32,123 nt of DNA, taken from positions 1 to 32,123 of the forward strand of contig CAMCZA010000005.1 in NCBI GenBank assembly GCA_945885515.1. Direction: 5' to 3'. The notes beneath the pieces were generated by a model that was not told the origin of the DNA, searched no databases, and saw nothing but the letters and a program-made list of their open reading frames with translations. Origin of the DNA: Ferrithrix thermotolerans DSM 19514 (GTDB lineage: Bacteria; Actinomycetota; Acidimicrobiia; Acidimicrobiales; Ilumatobacteraceae). A program made the position numbers and the translations under genes. This document shows positions 19,722 to 29,277 of this stretch, piece by piece. Position 1 is the first letter of the stretch, and the number at the start of each line of letters is the position of its first letter.

Positions 19722-20588
19722 GTGGCTGACATTTTGTTGATTGCTGGTCTATCGGGTGCGGGTCGCTCATTAGCCGCAGACGACTTAGAAGATCTGGGCT
19801 GGTTCGTTATAGACAATATGCCGACTGAACTAATCGACAAGGTTGTCGAGATTGCGTCTGTTGGTTCAAAACTTGAGAAACTAGCGTTAGTCGTTGGTAC
19901 ACCTACTGCGCAATTAGGAATAGTTGAGGTGTTAAAAAAACTACGACACGGTAGTCATCGCGTGCGTTTGTTGTATCTAGATGCGACGACTGCTGAACTT
20001 GTCAAACGATACGCAACTACGCGACGGAAGCATCCACTGGCTGATGATAAGTCTGGAGTTGAGCAGGCGATAGCCAAAGAAAGAATTCTTCTTGAACCTG
20101 TTAAAGGTGACGCTGATTTAGTAATTGACACTACGAATTTGACTATTCATCAACTCAAATCTCGAATCGGAGAACTGTTTGCCGGTGGCGACGCCAGTGA
20201 CGCGATGCAGGTTTCTGTGGTCTCTTTTGGTTACAAACACGGATTACCAACCGATGTTGATCTTGTGTTTGATGTTCGATTTTTGCCCAATCCTCATTGG
20301 GATGAGAAATTACGTCCCTTAACTGGTCTTGACGCAGCGGTAAATGAATATGTGATGTCGCAAGAACTTTCGCACAAATTTCTCAATGAGTTGTACAGCA
20401 TGTTAAAAATTCTTCTGCCTGCTTACATTGCCGAGGGTAAAAGCTATTTAACTATCGCGATCGGCTGCACCGGTGGTCGCCATCGATCAGTCGTTATTTC
20501 TGAGCAAGTTTTGCAGTGGCTTGGTGAAAATGCTCAACATCCGAGACTTACTCATCGCGACATTATGCGAGTTGACTCGGGGCACTAA
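19722..20588 (+). CDS. rapZ: RapZ/YvcJ-family nucleotide-binding protein
   Basis: IAGLSGAGRSLAADDLEDLGWFVIDNMPTELI; VSFGYKHGLPTDVDLVFDVRFLPNPHW; IAIGCTGGRHRSVVISE. Confidence 0.95.
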   Translation: MADILLIAGLSGAGRSLAADDLEDLGWFVIDNMPTELIDKVVEIASVGSKLEKLALVVGTPTAQLGIVEVLKKLRHGSHRVRLLYLDATTAELVKRYATTRRKHPLADDKSGVEQAIAKERILLEPVKGDADLVIDTTNLTIHQLKSRIGELFAGGDASDAMQVSVVSFGYKHGLPTDVDLVFDVRFLPNPHWDEKLRPLTGLDAAVNEYVMSQELSHKFLNELYSMLKILLPAYIAEGKSYLTIAIGCTGGRHRSVVISEQVLQWLGENAQHPRLTHRDIMRVDSGH

Positions 20589-20597
20589 GGTTTAGAT
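20586..20597 (+). promoter_or_regulatory. TANNNT -10-like hexamer TAAGGT, 6 nt before gap ATG; its TAA is the rapZ stop codon
   Basis: TAAGGT at 20586-20591, spacer TTAGAT, ATG at 20598. Confidence 0.45.
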
Positions 20598-21608
20598 ATG
20601 ACTATCAGAGTAGGAATCAACGGCTTCGGTCGAATTGGCAGAAACTTTTATCGGGCGATCAAGCAAACTGGTGCAGATATTGAGATAGTTGCGGTCAATG
20701 ATCTCGGTTCGCTTAAGACGATGGCGCATCTTCTCAAATACGACTCCGTGCTTGGTGTGTTACCGAACGAGATATCTGCAACAGATGACGGCATCAATAT
20801 TGACGGCAAACTCTTAAAGGTCTTATCCAAGCGCGACCCCAAAGAGTTGGGTTGGGGAAGCCTCGGCGTTGATCTTGTAATTGAATCAACGGGATTTTTT
20901 ACAGATCGCGATAAAGCATCTGCCCACTTAGATGCTGGAGCACCGTGTGTAATTATCTCAGCACCTGCAACTAATGCTGATGCGACTTTTGTATATGGTG
21001 TAAATCATCAAGACTTTGACGCCAAGAATCACAAAGTGGTTTCGAACGCAAGTTGCACGACGAATTGTTTCGTGCCAATGGTCAAAGTGCTGGATGATGC
21101 GTTTGGTGTTGAGAATGGTTTGATGACAACGATTCACGCATATACGGGCGACCAGTCGATAGTTGACGGGCCCCATAGCGATTTGCGAAGGGCCAGAGCG
21201 GCAGCAATAAATATCATTCCAACAAGCACAGGTGCCGCACGCGCAACAAGTCTTGTAATGCAGTCGATGAAGGGAAAGTTGGACGGAACTTCTTTACGAG
21301 TACCAGTCCCAACGGGATCGATCACTGATTTGGTCGCAAATCTTAAGAAACCGGCATCAGTTGCCGAGATTAATGCTGCATTTAAGGCCGCTGCATCAGG
21401 ACCTCTAAAAAATATTCTTGAATACTGCGCTGACCCGATTGTCTCAAGTGATGTAGTTACGAACCCACATAGTTGCGTCTTTGATAGCGATCTGACAATG
21501 AGTATGGGGTCGTTGGTTAAAGTTCTCGGGTGGTACGACAATGAATGGGGCTATTCGAATCGTCTGGTCGATCTCACTACATTTATTGGGGCAGCACTTA
21601 AGCGTTAG
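20598..21608 (+). CDS. gap: Type I glyceraldehyde-3-phosphate dehydrogenase
   Basis: VGINGFGRIGRNFYRA, SNASCTTNC, WYDNEWGYSNRLVDL. Confidence 0.97.
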   Translation: MTIRVGINGFGRIGRNFYRAIKQTGADIEIVAVNDLGSLKTMAHLLKYDSVLGVLPNEISATDDGINIDGKLLKVLSKRDPKELGWGSLGVDLVIESTGFFTDRDKASAHLDAGAPCVIISAPATNADATFVYGVNHQDFDAKNHKVVSNASCTTNCFVPMVKVLDDAFGVENGLMTTIHAYTGDQSIVDGPHSDLRRARAAAINIIPTSTGAARATSLVMQSMKGKLDGTSLRVPVPTGSITDLVANLKKPASVAEINAAFKAAASGPLKNILEYCADPIVSSDVVTNPHSCVFDSDLTMSMGSLVKVLGWYDNEWGYSNRLVDLTTFIGAALKR

Positions 21609-22718
21609 ATGGTCTCACAACTAGAAGACCTTGGCGACGTTCGCGGCAAGACCGTGTTGGTAAGGACTGATTTCAATGTCCCGATGTCTGGCCCAGATGA
21701 CGCTCGGGTAATCGCTGATGATTTTCGAATTCAAGCGGCATTGCCAACCATTAACTGGCTAATCGGTCGTGGTGCAAAAGTAATTTGTGCCAGTCACCTT
21801 GGGCGTCCAAAAGGTGTGATGACAAAGAAACATTCGATGGCACCAATTCAAAGACGACTTGCAGAACTCGCCCCAGGTGTCGAGTTACTTGAAAATCTTC
21901 GCTTCAATCCTGGAGAAGAAGCAAACAGTCCAGAGTTTGTAAAGCAACTTGTTGAAGGCATCGACCTATACGTCAATGACGCTTTTGGTGCAGCACATCG
22001 ATCACACGCTTCAATTGTCGGCCCGCCAAAGACATTGCCATCTGCGGCGGGGCGGTTATTGCAGCGCGAAGTAGAAGTACTCGGGGAAATGCGAAATAAC
22101 CCTAAACGACCACTAGTGGCAGTGTTAGGTGGAGCGAAGATCAGCGACAAAATCGGCGTAATCGAAGCACTGTCGAATGTTGTTGACTCGTTCGTGATTG
22201 GTGGAGGAATGTGCTTTACTTTCCTCGCGGCCAAGTCCATGCCGATTGGCGATTCTCTGTGCGAAAAAGATCAAATCGATTTTTGTAAAAAACTTCTCGC
22301 ATCAAAAGTAGAAATTCATTTACCTGAAGACATTGTCGGTGTTGATTCTGACGGCCAATTTGCAACTTTTGGCGTTCGACTGCCGCCTGGGGCAAAAGGT
22401 TTAGACATTGGGCCGGGAAGTGCCGCAGCGTTTGCCGACATAATCATGGGCGCCCGAAGTGTCTTTTGGAACGGTCCGATGGGGATGTTTGAAGATTCAC
22501 GATTCGCCGCCGGTACTCGAACTATCGCTCAGGCAATATCAGAGACGAAAGCGTTTACAATTGTCGGCGGCGGTGACTCGGCGGCAGCCCTGGCGCAGTT
22601 TGGTTTTGAAAAAGACGTTGACCACGTTTCAACTGGCGGCGGTGCATCACTAGAGTTTCTTGAACTCGGCGACTTGCCAGGATTGAGCGCGTTGCGAGGA
22701 GCACCAAATGTCAAATGA
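21609..22718 (+). CDS. pgk: Phosphoglycerate kinase
   Basis: GKTVLVRTDFNVPM, SHLGRPKG, YVNDAFGAAHRSHAS, VLGGAKISDKI, GGGDSAAAL, STGGGASLEFLE. Confidence 0.97.
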   Translation: MVSQLEDLGDVRGKTVLVRTDFNVPMSGPDDARVIADDFRIQAALPTINWLIGRGAKVICASHLGRPKGVMTKKHSMAPIQRRLAELAPGVELLENLRFNPGEEANSPEFVKQLVEGIDLYVNDAFGAAHRSHASIVGPPKTLPSAAGRLLQREVEVLGEMRNNPKRPLVAVLGGAKISDKIGVIEALSNVVDSFVIGGGMCFTFLAAKSMPIGDSLCEKDQIDFCKKLLASKVEIHLPEDIVGVDSDGQFATFGVRLPPGAKGLDIGPGSAAAFADIIMGARSVFWNGPMGMFEDSRFAAGTRTIAQAISETKAFTIVGGGDSAAALAQFGFEKDVDHVSTGGGASLEFLELGDLPGLSALRGAPNVK

Positions 22719-23496
22719 AGTTCGTAAGCCAATTATCAGTGGCAACTGGAAGATGAACCATAATCACTTTGAAGCGATTCAATCGATTCAAAAACTTGCC
22801 TATCTTTTGACGAAAGATGATTTCGCAGCAGTTGATGTGACGATACACCCACCATTTACGGATTTAAGAAGTTCACAGACACTTATTGATGCTGACGAGT
22901 TGCAATTCATTTTAGGTGCGCAACATTGCCACGAGGCTGAATCTGGCGCATTCACAGGTGAGGTTTCGGCGCAGTTTCTCGCCAAGCTGAATGTTCATTA
23001 TGTGATTGTTGGACACAGTGAGAGGCGCCAAATCTTTGGTGAGACTGATGAACAAGTTCAGCAAAAAGTAGTTGCCATACAGAAATATTCAATGACACCG
23101 ATTTTGTGTGTTGGCGAAACTCTTGCTGACCGAGAAGCGGGTCTCACACACGAAAAAGTTCTTGGCCAAGTTCGCTCAGCCTTAGCGAAGCGATCAGTCG
23201 AACATGTTCGGTCGATGGTGATTGCCTACGAACCAATTTGGGCGATCGGAACTGGCAAAACTGCAACCGCCGATGACGCGCAGCGAGTCATTAGTTCAAT
23301 CCGTGAGGAAGTATCAAAAATCTCGTCGCCGATGGCGGCAAGTGCGATACGACTTCAATATGGTGGGAGCGTAAAAGCCAGCAATATTGTCCAGATCATG
23401 TCCCAACCTGATATTGATGGTGTGCTGGTTGGTGGCGCGAGCCTTGATTCTGCTGAGTTTGCCCGCATCTGTCAATACCGTCTGCGGGCGGCTTAA
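22708..23496 (+). CDS. tpiA: Triosephosphate isomerase
   Basis: ISGNWKMNHN, VIVGHSERRQIFGE, VIAYEPIWAIGTGKTA, QYGGSVKASN. Confidence 0.97.
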   Translation: MSNEVRKPIISGNWKMNHNHFEAIQSIQKLAYLLTKDDFAAVDVTIHPPFTDLRSSQTLIDADELQFILGAQHCHEAESGAFTGEVSAQFLAKLNVHYVIVGHSERRQIFGETDEQVQQKVVAIQKYSMTPILCVGETLADREAGLTHEKVLGQVRSALAKRSVEHVRSMVIAYEPIWAIGTGKTATADDAQRVISSIREEVSKISSPMAASAIRLQYGGSVKASNIVQIMSQPDIDGVLVGGASLDSAEFARICQYRLRAA

Positions 23497-23579: not shown

Positions 23580-25313
23580 ATGAGAAAAACCACAAAAGTG
23601 GCTCGTCTCGCGTCAGCATTAATCGCCGTGTCATTAATTGGCGCAGCGTGCGGTGGAAGCGATGATGCAGCAACAAGCGATACAACAGCGGCGGTGGCGC
23701 CTGCAAGTTACCCAACAAGTTTGGATGACTGTGCAGCGGTTACTTACGACTACACCAAGCCAGCGACAACTGGCGGAATGACAATTACATACGACATTAA
23801 TCCAGCTGCAGTTTGGGATGACGGTTCACAAATAACCGCCGCCGACTTCAAAGCAACTTGGGAAGCATCCTTGAATACCCCAGCATCAATTTCGACATCT
23901 GGGTATGACCAAGTGACCTCTGTAGAAGCGGGTGCAAGTGACAAACAAGTCGTTGTAACAATGAAGGCTGTTTACGCACCATGGCGTGGATTATTTAGTT
24001 CATTGATCAAGGCTGCGGCAGTCAAGAACACTAAAGATGTCTCGGGTGATTTCGCAGACAACATTCCATTCTCTGGACGTCCTTACAAAATTAAATCATG
24101 GAGTCCAGACCAAATTGTGTTTGTGCCGAACGATAAATATTGGGGTGACGACAAGGCTGTAACGAAGAAATTCGTAATGGTGCCGAAGGCTGACAGCGAT
24201 ACAGAAATCGCAGCAATCAAAGCAGGCGAAGTGGACATGATTTATCCGCAGTTCTACGCAGGCATTGAAGAAGCAGTGAAGCAAGACAACATCGCATCCA
24301 AGATTGATTACGGCGGCGACTATGAAGGTTTATATTTCCAACAGAAATGTGGACCATTCGCAGATCCAAACTTCCGTGCGGCATTCTCGATGTCAATTGA
24401 TCGCGAAGCATTGTTCAAGCAGATCTACATACCACTCGGTGGAAAAGAATTGCTTCAGTGTGGACCGATGGTCCCTGGACCGTTCTGCAATGGAGACGAG
24501 TTTGCAAATAGTTACGACCCGGCAGCAGCAGAAGCATTGTTGACCGAGAACGGTTGGACCAAGGGATCCGATGGTTTCTGGGTTGACCCAAGCGGCAAGG
24601 TTCCTGATGTTCGTTGGATCATTAACACCGGCAACACACGTCGTGAGAGCACTCAGGCATATTTGATTCCGTTGCTAGCTGCAGCAGGTTTCAAAGTGCG
24701 TGCAGATAACTGCCCTGCCGAGTGTTACTTTCAGCAGCGGCTACCGGCAATGGACTACGACATGGCGATGTACATCAGTACAGCGCCACCAGATCCAAGT
24801 TATTTGACTGGCAGTTTCGCTTGCGACCTCATTCCAACTGCAGCCAATAAAAACATTGGTCAAAATAGTGGTGGTTGGTGCAACACTGAGGCGTCAGATT
24901 TGCTTTATGCAGCTGATGTCGACGCTGATGCACTTACTCGCGCAGATAAAATCAAGCAAGTACTCGTGCTGATGGCAAAGGATCATATGATGTTGCCTTT
25001 GATGCAGTTTCCGAAATCAGGATTCTGGCGAAGTGACAAGGTCGGCGGTCCTGTGGATGGTCAACTCAATAATTATGCAGCATTCAATAATATTCACCTG
25101 TGGACTGATGTTGATGGCGACGGGCAAATTGTGCTCGGTGCCGAGCAGTGGCCAGGGTGTCTCAACCCAATCACAGAGTGTGCAAACTCTTCGTGGATGG
25201 TTTGGACAACGGCATTTCAAGTAATGCCAGGTGCTTATGCAACCACGAATGATGCAAAGTATGTAGTCACCAACCTGCTCTCAGGTGAGGCGACTGTAAA
25301 GGTAAATAGCTAG
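23580..25313 (+). CDS. ABC transporter solute-binding lipoprotein, SBP_bac_5/peptide family, apparently circularly permuted (start moved from 23529 to ATG 23580)
   Basis: Shine-Dalgarno AAAGGGGAG before ATG 23580; lipobox LIGAAC; ITYDINPAAVWDDGSQITAADF near the N-terminus; canonical N-terminal block GQIVLGAEQWPGCLNPITECANSSW...YVVTNLLSGE at the extreme C-terminus; followed by dppBCDF-like genes. Confidence 0.93.
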   Translation: MRKTTKVARLASALIAVSLIGAACGGSDDAATSDTTAAVAPASYPTSLDDCAAVTYDYTKPATTGGMTITYDINPAAVWDDGSQITAADFKATWEASLNTPASISTSGYDQVTSVEAGASDKQVVVTMKAVYAPWRGLFSSLIKAAAVKNTKDVSGDFADNIPFSGRPYKIKSWSPDQIVFVPNDKYWGDDKAVTKKFVMVPKADSDTEIAAIKAGEVDMIYPQFYAGIEEAVKQDNIASKIDYGGDYEGLYFQQKCGPFADPNFRAAFSMSIDREALFKQIYIPLGGKELLQCGPMVPGPFCNGDEFANSYDPAAAEALLTENGWTKGSDGFWVDPSGKVPDVRWIINTGNTRRESTQAYLIPLLAAAGFKVRADNCPAECYFQQRLPAMDYDMAMYISTAPPDPSYLTGSFACDLIPTAANKNIGQNSGGWCNTEASDLLYAADVDADALTRADKIKQVLVLMAKDHMMLPLMQFPKSGFWRSDKVGGPVDGQLNNYAAFNNIHLWTDVDGDGQIVLGAEQWPGCLNPITECANSSWMVWTTAFQVMPGAYATTNDAKYVVTNLLSGEATVKVNS

Positions 25314-25360: not shown

Positions 25361-25403
25361 GGTGCGTCGATTTGGCAAAGTGTCAAGTCGACGCACCTTC
25401 TTT
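25361..25403 (+). terminator. Strong hairpin between solute-binding protein gene and permease genes; terminator or intra-operon attenuator
   Basis: GGTGCGTCGATTTGGC-aaagt-GTCAAGTCGACGCACC, 10 perfect outer base pairs plus 6 inner pairs with G-U wobbles, followed by TTCTTT. Confidence 0.7.
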
Positions 25404-25438: not shown

Positions 25439-26413
25439 ATGATTCGTTACATCTTGCGTCGCCTTGCATGGGCGCTTCCAACTATGTTGATCGTTACATT
25501 TTTGGTTTATGTGGCATTGAGGATCGGCACGAATCCAGTTGAGAGCTACAAGCGGTCCAACCCTCGCGTCACGCCAGAGAAGATTCAGCAATATATTGAT
25601 ATAAATGGTCTGGACCCGAACTATGTTCTGGGTTATTTTCGTTGGCTCAACAATTTTTTGACCGGCGACTGGCCGCGCAGCATTAAAGGATCTCGCGAAG
25701 TTTGGCCCGCATTAAAAGATGCCATGGCGAACACGCTTCGACTAGGTATTGCCGCGACAGTTGTTGGCGTTTTCTTTGGGCTTATTTTTGGTCTACTTGC
25801 CTCGCTGCGACCTGGTGGTAGCCGCGATATTGCGATTAATACCGGGGCTTTCGTCGGCATTTCAATTCCGCCCTATATTTCGGCAATTTTATTGCAACTT
25901 TTATTCGCTGTTTATTGGCAGCGTTGGTTTGGATCTAGTCTTTTCCCAACTTCGGGTGTTTACCCTGCAGGCCATACAGGGTTCGATCTATTTCTTATGT
26001 TGAAATTTATGGCGCTACCAACCATCGTCGTGGCTATCCAGATTGTTGCAACCTATAGTCGTTATTTACGTTCTTCTTTGCTGGATGTGTTGAATTCTGA
26101 TTACATGCGCACGGCACGATCCAAGGGCATCAGTGAACGTCGAATTTTGATCCATCACGGAATGCGAAATGCACTGATACCAATTGTCACAGTTGCCGCG
26201 ATTGATTTTGGTTCGATCGTCGGAGGTTTAATTATCTCCGAGAATATTTTTTCGTATCCAGGGATGGGTCTTTATTTTCTGAAATCATTTGGTGATGGAG
26301 ATTTCCCACTGCTTATGCCGTGGATGGTGATTATTGTCGCTTCGATTCTCATTTTTAATTTAATTGCCGATATTTCTTACGCATGGCTTGATCCAAGGAT
26401 TCGCCTTGAGTAA
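25439..26413 (+). CDS. Peptide-type ABC transporter permease (DppB/OppB-like)
   Basis: MIRYILRRLAWALPTMLIVTFLVYV; binding-protein-dependent permease EAA-type motif (YMRTARSKGISERRILIHHGMRNALIPIVT). Confidence 0.94.
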   Translation: MIRYILRRLAWALPTMLIVTFLVYVALRIGTNPVESYKRSNPRVTPEKIQQYIDINGLDPNYVLGYFRWLNNFLTGDWPRSIKGSREVWPALKDAMANTLRLGIAATVVGVFFGLIFGLLASLRPGGSRDIAINTGAFVGISIPPYISAILLQLLFAVYWQRWFGSSLFPTSGVYPAGHTGFDLFLMLKFMALPTIVVAIQIVATYSRYLRSSLLDVLNSDYMRTARSKGISERRILIHHGMRNALIPIVTVAAIDFGSIVGGLIISENIFSYPGMGLYFLKSFGDGDFPLLMPWMVIIVASILIFNLIADISYAWLDPRIRLE

Positions 26414-27326
26414 TGAAACTGAGACCTCGCTGACGCCGCGCCAGATGGCTTTCAGGCGCTTTGTTTCTCACAGAGCCGCAGTCATTAGCTGTGTGATTTT
26501 AGGTCTGTTGACCTTGCTGGTAATTTTTGCACCATTTACTGCTCGCTACGGAGTCAATGAATCAGTTCAAGTTCCGCCCAATTCATTTCTGACACCGCGT
26601 GCCAATGCTTGGTTGGGCACCGACGATATTGGTCGCGATCTTTACAGTCGTTTAATTTATGGAGTGAGAGTTTCCCTGATAATCGGTTTGCTTAGTGCGC
26701 TGATTTCAGTCACTATCGGATCACTTGTTGGCGCCATTGCTGGTTTTCGAGGTGGAAAGTTTGACGACATCATGATGAGGGTCACCGATTTATTTTTGGC
26801 TTTTCCGTTTCTCGTGACTCTTCTGATTGTGCGAAATGTCTTAGGTGCGATTTCTTGGATTCAACCAATTACAGGGGAGATGAACTCAGTTAGGTTTATT
26901 ATTCTTTTGTTCAGTATTTTTGGTTGGATGGGGGTTGCCCGCATTGTTCGAGGGCAAGTGCTCTCACTCAAAGAGCGTGAGTTCATTGAGGCCGCTCGAG
27001 CAGTGGGTGCGAGTCGTCGTTACATTATCCGCCGACATTTGTTGCCGAATTCAATAGGACCAATCATGGTCGCGCTTACATTTTCTGTGGTTGGAGCTAT
27101 TACCGGCGAATCAACTCTTGCGTTTTTTGGTTATGGTCCACAAGCGGGTGATGGTGCGACATCTCTCGGTAATTTAGTCGGTGCAGCCAAAGGTGCCGTA
27201 CAAACGGGCTTTTGGTGGCTCGCCGTGTTTCCTTGTCTTATGTTGGTAATTATTGCGCTGAGCGTAAATTTCATTGGCGATGCACTACGTGATGCAACTG
27301 ATACTCAACTGGATCGTGGTAATTAA
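26406..27326 (+). CDS. Peptide-type ABC transporter permease (DppC/OppC-like); TTG start at 26406 overlapping the upstream gene
   Basis: GTDDIGRDLYSRLIYGVRVSLIIGL, EFIEAARAVGASRRYIIRRHLLPNSIGPIMV. Confidence 0.93.
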   Translation: MSNETETSLTPRQMAFRRFVSHRAAVISCVILGLLTLLVIFAPFTARYGVNESVQVPPNSFLTPRANAWLGTDDIGRDLYSRLIYGVRVSLIIGLLSALISVTIGSLVGAIAGFRGGKFDDIMMRVTDLFLAFPFLVTLLIVRNVLGAISWIQPITGEMNSVRFIILLFSIFGWMGVARIVRGQVLSLKEREFIEAARAVGASRRYIIRRHLLPNSIGPIMVALTFSVVGAITGESTLAFFGYGPQAGDGATSLGNLVGAAKGAVQTGFWWLAVFPCLMLVIIALSVNFIGDALRDATDTQLDRGN

Positions 27327-28306
27327 TGGCTGAAAAGATTCTTCAAATTCGTAATCTGCGAGTTACTTTCGAAACCCCATTTGGGCAAGTTTTCGCTGTG
27401 AGAGGTGTAGACCTCGATGTTGAAGAAGGTGAACTTCTCGGGGTGGTCGGAGAATCAGGCTCTGGTAAATCTGTGACGTTCTTGGCAGCGATTGGATTGC
27501 TTTCTTCTAGGGCGCGAGTCACGGGTTCAGTTGTTCTTCAGGGCGAGGAACTTATTGGCAAAACTCCGCAGCAAATGCGTTCGGTTCGTGGACGACTGAT
27601 GGCCATGATTTTTCAGGATCCGCTATCAGCGCTGAACCCTGTTCATCGTGTTGGCAAGCAAATAGTTGAGATGTTGCAATCACACCAGAATCTGACGAAC
27701 AAACAAGCAGCAACACGCGCGGTGGAACTTCTGGACTTAGTTGGTATCCCACAACCTGAACAACGCTCAAATCAGTATCCTCACGAATTTTCGGGCGGAA
27801 TGCGTCAGCGTGTAGTTATAGCCATCGCGATAGCCAACAATCCAAAGCTATTGATTGCCGATGAGCCGACAACTGCACTTGATGTGACGGTGCAAGCACA
27901 GATTCTTGAGGTGATCAAGCGCGTGCAACAGCAATTTGGTACGGCTGTTGTTTTGATTACCCACGACCTTGGTGTGATCGCGCGCGTAGCAGACAGGGTT
28001 GATGTGATGTATGCAGGTCGCAATGTTGAACAGGGTTTAGTCGACAATTTGTATGATCACCCAAGTCATCCTTACACGCGTGGGTTGCTTTCATCGATAC
28101 CACAAGCCGGTAAAGACCGACTAACTCCAATCCGTGGATTCCCGCCAAATATGATGTCGCCACCGTCTGGGTGTGCATTTCGCACGCGGTGCGAGTTTGC
28201 CGAACCCTCATGCGAGGTTGACATCCCCGAGTTGAAAATGTTTAATGATCTACAAACAGCGTGTTTGCGCGCACATCAACTGCCAAGTTTTCAGGTCCGA
28301 CAATGA
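27326..28306 (+). CDS. Peptide-type ABC transporter ATP-binding protein (DppD/OppD-like)
   Basis: [43 protein letters not shown]-terminal oligopeptide-type extension with Cys cluster. Confidence 0.95.
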
Positions 28307-29277
28307 GCGACGAACTTCTCAATGTTGTTAATCTTGTAAAAAATTTTCAAGTTCGGCGTACAAGAAACTCTGGATCTAAGAAGCGAACGGTACAGGCTGT
28401 CACCAATGTTTCATTTTCAATCAATAGAGGCCAAACACTTGGTTTAGTAGGCGAGTCAGGTTCTGGAAAAACAACAGTTGGTCGTTGTATCTTGCGACTG
28501 ATTGAGCCAACTTCTGGTCAGGTCGAATTTGACGGTGAAGATTTGGGCTCAATGAAGTTTGAAGAGTTGCGTGCGACTCGGCGCAAAATGCAAATCGTCT
28601 TTCAAGATCCGTTTGCATCTCTGGATCCTAAAATGACTGTTGGTTCGTCTATCGCCGAGCCGTTAATTGTTCAAGGTGTACCGGGTGACCATAACGATAA
28701 AGTCTTTGAGTTGCTTGAACTTGTCGGACTCTCGGTTGATCACGCTTCACGATTTCCCCACGAGTTCTCCGGAGGCCAGCGCCAACGAATCGGAATCGCA
28801 CGGGCGTTGGCACTGAACCCCGCGCTGATTATTCTTGACGAACCAGTTTCGGCTCTTGATGTGAGTATTCAAGCAGGAATTCTCAACTTGTTCGAAGATT
28901 TGCAGAAGAAACTCGGAATCAGTTATCTGTTTATTGCCCATGATTTGTCCGTCGTGCGCCATATTGCTGATCGCATTGCGGTTATGTACCTTGGAAAGAT
29001 TGTTGAAATAGGTGACAGAGATTCGGTATTCGATCACCCAACACACCCGTACACAAAGGCATTGTTGTCGGCGGTTCCGGTAACGGACCCAAAAGTTGAG
29101 CGATTGCGTTCTCGCGTGACGCTTGAAGGTGAAGTGCCGTCGCCGATGAATCCTCCGTCAGGTTGTCGCTTTCGAACCCGGTGTTGGAAAGCCCAAGACA
29201 TTTGTGCACAACAAGAGCCCGTACTTGAATTGCGTGCAACTAGCCAAATGTCGGCATGCCATTTTCCTGAGTCCTGA
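28303..29277 (+). CDS. Peptide-type ABC transporter ATP-binding protein (DppF/OppF-like); start moved from 28261 to ATG 28303
   Basis: [54 protein letters not shown] overlaps the end of the upstream gene. Confidence 0.95.

Follow-up and report, generated by a model that had tools for sequence, protein, structure and literature searches.

The protein encoded at positions 23580-25313 of the window (the whole 32,123-nucleotide stretch of Ferrithrix thermotolerans DSM 19514 DNA that was analysed) is a natural circular permutant of a family-5 (cluster C, OppA/DppA-type) solute-binding protein. It is a 577-aa lipoprotein whose frame runs unbroken from the ATG at 23580 to the TAG at 25313. The lipobox cysteine, Cys24, is followed by a linker and then by the strand 'TITYDINPAAVWDDG', with no N-block ahead of that strand, whereas in canonical family-5 binding proteins about 60 residues precede the strand equivalent to 'MTITYDINPAAVWDDG' of the window protein. 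In the window protein, linker residues 25-63 occupy the place that linker plus N-block hold in canonical proteins. A first-pass annotation, made from the sequence alone, had claimed that the expected first block was absent from the N-terminus, that a matching block formed the last ~65 residues (about 25113-25310), and that the continuous frame spoke against a simple frameshift. The permutation held in tests with a canonical-only HMM, shuffled blocks and a doubled canonical sequence, and the continuity of the frame was confirmed. The position of the block also held and was refined to residues 515-577 (25122-25310), slightly inside the first estimate. The checks proposed with that annotation included a search with Pfam PF00496, a structure prediction and a comparison of the arrangement in related genomes.

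The PF00496 (SBP_bac_5) search gave a collinear match of profile positions 14-359 to residues 64-412, with 190.4 bits against a gathering cut-off of 32.4. Since this model covers only the 'Middle' part of the family, it conceals the rearrangement. Relatives were gathered from the family, order, class and phylum of the window genome, and their frames were classed by the position of a moved-block profile relative to the middle. This gave 62 permuted and 70 canonical proteins, counted as distinct middle sequences; several loci were the same assembly reached in two ways. The moved-block profile was itself derived from permuted proteins, and for this reason the decisive test relied on an HMM of the 70 canonical-order homologues alone. 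On the window protein, model positions 62-497 matched residues 63-493 (1.6e-121) and positions 1-61 matched residues 515-575 (1.9e-21). The two pieces abut at model 61|62 with their order swapped, and the model is covered once, with no duplicate block.

An HMM of the canonical N-block only matched window residues 515-573 (1e-25, 75.8 bits), while the best of 5,000 block shuffles reached 12.8 bits. With this model the N-block was found at the C-terminal end in all 62 distinct permuted relatives, and no N-terminal copy before the middle was detected in any of them. In Smith-Waterman alignment the moved block scored 143 against the N-block of the canonical protein L173, 26 SD above the scores of 2,000 shuffles (maximum 45). 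The whole-protein alignment score rose from 808 to 935 (+127) when the canonical sequence was doubled; seven canonical controls shifted by 5 or less. The moved block is ~40% identical to the canonical N-block. The pattern 'AEQWPxCLNPITxCANxSW' is common to the moved block and the canonical N-terminus (L093, L171 and L173), and both cysteines and a tryptophan are invariant across the two orders. A search of PDB sequences with the N-block-only profile gave no meaningful match, the block being too short and divergent. The full canonical profile aligned end to end with EppA, and therefore the canonical order is the order of solved structures. The positions of all features are given in Table 1.

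Table 1. Coordinates of the permuted gene, its parts and its neighbours in the window
Feature	Position	Strand	Basis
CDS, circularly permuted family-5 solute-binding lipoprotein (577 aa + stop)	23580..25313	+	orthologues keep this order over their whole length
Lipoprotein signal peptide and lipobox, residues 1-24 (...LIGAAC)	23580..23651	+	sequence; M1 and C24 invariant (45 aligned relatives)
Variable linker, residues 25-63, no N-block	23652..23768	+	canonical HMM finds no N-block match before the middle; low model confidence to residue 40
Canonical middle and old C-terminus, residues 64-509	23769..25106	+	HMM positions 62-497 at residues 63-493, 1.6e-121
New joint of old C-terminus and old N-terminus, DVDGDG, residues 510-515, EF-hand-like loop	25107..25124	+	motif in 60/62 permuted vs 1/70 canonical
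Moved block, residues 515-577, the canonical first ~60 mature residues	25122..25310	+	HMM 1-61 at 515-575, alignment, predicted strand-helix-strand
gap, pgk, tpi, directly upstream of the binding-protein gene	20598..23496	+	conserved neighbours of permuted and many canonical versions
ABC importer genes, 3' of the binding-protein gene	25439..29277	+	conserved beside permuted genes
Two permeases	25439-26413, 26364-27326	+	ORF starts from mechanical listing
Two ATPases	27326-28306, 28261-29277	+	ORF starts from mechanical listing

The upstream genes are those which we take to be gap, pgk and tpi, named by homology and established knowledge. At window positions 20588-20598, gap comes immediately after a rapZ-like gene, and yvcK and whiA homologues are absent at that place. 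In many actinobacteria, homologues of these two genes usually lie between the rapZ-like gene and gap. Between the binding-protein gene and the permease genes an inverted repeat (ggtgcgtcga...tcgacgcacc, 25364-25400) was seen by eye; it could be a partial terminator or an mRNA-stabilising hairpin.

An AlphaFold2 model of the window protein, made with an alignment of 45 permuted relatives, had a mean pLDDT of 87.9 and a pTM of 0.85. The pLDDT was 93-97 at residues 501-520, which comprise the joint and the first moved strand, and 70-72 at residues 521-540. The model of canonical L173 had a pLDDT of 90.2 and a pTM of 0.88, and shows in order a strand at 47-52, helices at 64-79, strands at 84-86, 92-94 and 109-111, and then 114-120. 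The predicted equivalents in the permuted protein follow in the same order, with a strand at 516-521, helices at 538-548, strands at 553-555, 561-563 and 572-576, and then 66-73. Over the shifted whole, secondary-structure agreement between the two predicted models was ~91%, without coordinate superposition. Against EppA, AppA and Mtb OppA, the permuted model gave a probability of 1.00 and TMt of 0.65-0.75 for the sequential part, so that the overall two-lobed family-5 fold is likely, as far as a predicted model can tell. In sequential Foldseek comparison with AppA (1xoc), the permuted model reached TMt 0.74 over 476 columns and the canonical model 0.90 over 542 columns. The smaller sequential overlap is supportive only, as conformational differences may widen the gap.

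The old termini are joined by the motif D-x-[DN]-G-[DN]-G in 60 of the 62 permuted proteins, and this motif lies near the termini in only 1 of the 70 canonical ones. In the window protein it is followed by Q-I. A D-x-[DN]-G-[DN]-G motif followed by Q-I resembles the opening half of the loop seen in EF-hands or dockerins. Under the EF-hand criterion, D-x-[DN]-x-[DN]-G with an acidic residue at position 12, positions 1, 3, 5 and 6 are kept in 60/62, while in the window protein position 12 is Ala and a Glu stands at 13. Binding of Ca2+ at the joint is inferred from sequence only; it is a hypothesis in which we place rather low confidence. The two permuted proteins without the motif, L097 ('KPKSGDTITIGAEQ') and L114 ('EPIGDTEIIIGAEQ'), sit in those groups of the permuted clade that are closest to its base. 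Each has a loop-bearing neighbour, so loss and late gain of the loop are both compatible with the data.

Among 101 genomes of the window's family, 44 had a strong match, and in 40 of these it extended into the moved block, the same order as in the window protein. Three of the others were canonical (G038, G015 and G055) and one was cut short in the match (G078). Outside this family, two genomes of the order sample were permuted (G146 and G266, families f47 and f26). The remaining relatives in the order cover ~65 to 515 of the permuted profile, ending at the exact start of the moved block. When family members and G492 are set aside, the joint-region matches from the class and phylum samples span essentially nothing but the moved block, and they lie at the N end of canonical proteins. 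In a maximum-likelihood tree of the middle region, all permuted proteins fell on one side of a single branch with 100/100 support, and the proteins elsewhere were canonical. This single group suggests one origin, and we regard a single origin of the widespread permutation as likely. The tree was rooted at the midpoint only, and it is from the canonical order of solved structures and of relatives across the phylum that the permutation is inferred to be the derived state.

Genes of both chain orders lie directly after pgk-tpi in the gap-pgk-tpi locus, including L171 and L173, the canonical proteins nearest the permuted group. As both orders share this neighbourhood, the change probably took place in situ. 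The dN/dS ratio was ~0.03-0.07 in both parts of the gene, indicating purifying selection on both; the values are approximate, with synonymous changes near saturation.

Several homologues depart from this general picture. L094 and L095 (G055 and G015, placed in the window's family) are canonical tpi-locus proteins whose tree positions are among other families, which suggests gene replacement or else placement problems. L088-L092 (G013, G035, G051, G065 and G077) are fast-evolving permuted homologues after tpi with ~30% identity to the window protein. No permease was detected near them in the flank examined, which was short for L088, L090 and L091. In L096:1825-4200 (minus strand, G011:C29), a permuted binding-protein domain is preceded by an Hsp70-like segment (PF00012, 21.9 bits against a cut-off of 20.6) and by what seems to be a transmembrane stretch, so that the product looks like a receptor-type fusion.

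In G492, a genome from another order of the class, a further chain order was found in a tpi-locus gene, L174:958-2616 (G492:C100:28493-30148), whose product starts at model position 341 after the lipobox. Model 341-498 lies at residues 35-192 and model 2-341 at residues 212-552, so that the chain continues through the C-terminus into the N-block and stops at 341. Like the window protein, it belongs to the locus family after tpi and gives a complete canonical HMM match in two abutting out-of-order pieces; the cut is at model position 341 instead of 61. L174 nests among canonical proteins on the tree, indicating independence from the widespread permutation, and its relatives in its own order are canonical down to 59% identity. 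No further copies of the arrangement were found: G492 is the only genome of its family, and across the 58 genomes of its order the relatives are canonical, with a match split in two adjacent pieces in canonical order. The evidence rests on one MAG only (G492, 83% completeness). The signal is intact, the model is covered completely and the neighbouring genes are unaltered, all of which speaks against an artefact, and L174 is likely an independent second case of permutation in this locus gene, as yet unconfirmed. A bolder reading, which can be held only as a possibility, is that the tpi-locus binding proteins of Acidimicrobiia were repeatedly permuted (at least twice, at different points) and that the joint of the widespread form is a Ca2+-binding staple. 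If this were true, the staple would stabilise the rejoined lobe and solute capture may be Ca2+-dependent.

The explanation that best covers these results, and a very likely one, is a working permuted family-5 lipoprotein with an ordinary fold, linked to an importer and of single origin in the gap-pgk-tpi locus. The chain order, homology, conservation, tree grouping and locus are shown; the fold is predicted and the function inferred, and there are no experimental structure, expression or binding data. The old C-terminus would have been fused to the old first strand via the short D-x-D-G-D-G loop, and the new termini would fall where the old N-block met the 'TITYDINP' strand. The permuted chain is predicted to fold into an ordinary two-lobed binding protein, with the lipid tether at its new N-terminus. 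Topologically, this means that the tether meets the fold where the second canonical segment begins, no longer at the first strand. A solute, probably peptide-like, would be passed to the adjacent importer with two permeases and two ATPases. This binding function is inferred from the family, the lipobox, the adjacent importer genes and the signs of selection; the specificity is unknown, and no equivalog model for ligand specificity reached its cut-off on the window protein.

A single event in an Acidimicrobiales ancestor probably produced the permutation, within the gap-pgk-tpi locus. The likeliest route is a tandem duplication with fusion and trimming, in which the original signal peptide was retained. 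General models of circular permutation by duplication, fusion and trimming have been described (PMC3320104). Tandem canonical homologues ~100-200 bases apart were seen in L106 and L107 (G303:C101 and G323:C14), the kind of arrangement from which a duplication-based permutation could start. The existence of such copies and the retained signal peptide favour the duplication route, to which we give a modest preference, as an inference and not a demonstrated event. The first-pass annotation had considered tandem duplication with loss of the outer halves plausible; it remains so, but is not shown, and no partly duplicated intermediate (an ORF with two N-blocks) was found among the ORFs examined.

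The rival that survives best concerns this route: fission and fusion, or gain of an N-block at the C end from a paralogue after loss of the protein's own, is possible and not excluded. The end product cannot distinguish fission and fusion from duplication, the authors of the TpMglB-2 study raise the same possibility for their protein (PMC4990184), and the genome itself encodes other family-5 proteins. Against this rival, the moved block indicates the same canonical relatives (L093, L171 and L173) as the middle does, and the pieces abut exactly at model 61|62, as expected from one ancestral gene. Nor was a free-standing N-block or half gene noticed, though no systematic search was made. Unlikely is a decayed or repurposed paralogue that no longer serves the importer. 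It could draw on the fast-evolving g13 group (L088, L089 and L092), without a permease detected in the flank examined, and on the fusion of L096 to an Hsp70-like domain, but the window's own group has the importer genes after the binding-protein gene and a dN/dS of ~0.03-0.07.

It is very unlikely that the protein is collinear, with an extra N-block-like domain at the C-terminus and linker 25-63 replacing the true N-strand. A short helix is predicted at 48-52 in the linker and its YPT..CA residues are conserved in near relatives, but other permuted proteins (L033, L023 and L101) lack this linker or have an unrelated one, it bears no similarity to the N-block, and the strong conservation sits in the C-terminal block. 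The first-pass annotation had named three outcomes that would refute a permutation. A collinear extra C-terminal domain is excluded, since the canonical-only model matched in two swapped pieces whose edges abut and no copy remained at the N-terminus; a second N-block upstream is absent in 62/62 permuted proteins; and as to related proteins sharing the order without a permuted fold, relatives do share the order, yet in the canonical ones, many of which occupy that same locus, the block stands at the N-terminus, and the predicted secondary structures correspond one-to-one after the shift (models without coordinate superposition). An assembly or binning artefact can be practically ruled out: all sequences come from draft genomes, mostly MAGs, but the order and the joint recur in dozens of assemblies made independently from many sites, with divergence to ~50% identity and below, and the artefact was rejected on the 40/44 family genomes with a match and the two other families of the order.

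The circularly permuted window protein resembles cluster C/family 5 (OppA, DppA, AppA, NikA, Mtb OppA Rv1280c, EppA and LpqW; PF00496) in its homologous middle domain, its lipoprotein nature, its predicted two-lobed fold and the adjacent permease and ATPase genes. Unlike canonical members, it carries its first ~60 mature residues at the C end, has its tether at a different point of the fold and contains an additional D-x-D-G-D-G loop where the old termini meet. Its closest precedent is TpMglB-2 (Tp0684) from Treponema pallidum, which with its homologues forms 'Type Ic / cluster Bc', permuted cluster-B proteins (PMC4990184). It too is a natural permutation of a tethered solute-binding protein in which the first N-lobe elements moved to the C end. 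It differs in being a sugar-binding cluster B protein with another cut point and an added fourth hinge crossing, and its moved part has 13% identity, too weak to prove descent (PMC4990184), where that of the window protein is clear at ~40%. TpMglB-2 binds glucose and changes conformation (PMC4990184), indicating that permutation is compatible with function. Membership of the window protein in cluster Bc/type I was considered and rejected, its top structural and profile matches all being family-5/cluster C. To our knowledge no natural solute-binding-protein permutant had been described besides this one cluster-B case. The first-pass annotation knew of no description of such a protein, and we found no family-5/cluster C circular permutant in the literature searched, which lacks most subscription papers; within that literature, natural permutation was known before from TpMglB-2 and the cluster C case is likely new.

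These results mean that Pfam's middle-only model keeps such permutants out of annotation, and that a peptide-type binding protein can have its lipid tether shifted while the gene persists. With a second permutation at another cut point, the fold seems to tolerate such change well, which would be useful for the design of biosensors based on binding proteins. The permutation is fixed across a family of abundant freshwater actinobacteria and their relatives, and since canonical relatives lie at the same locus, cause and consequence can be compared directly.
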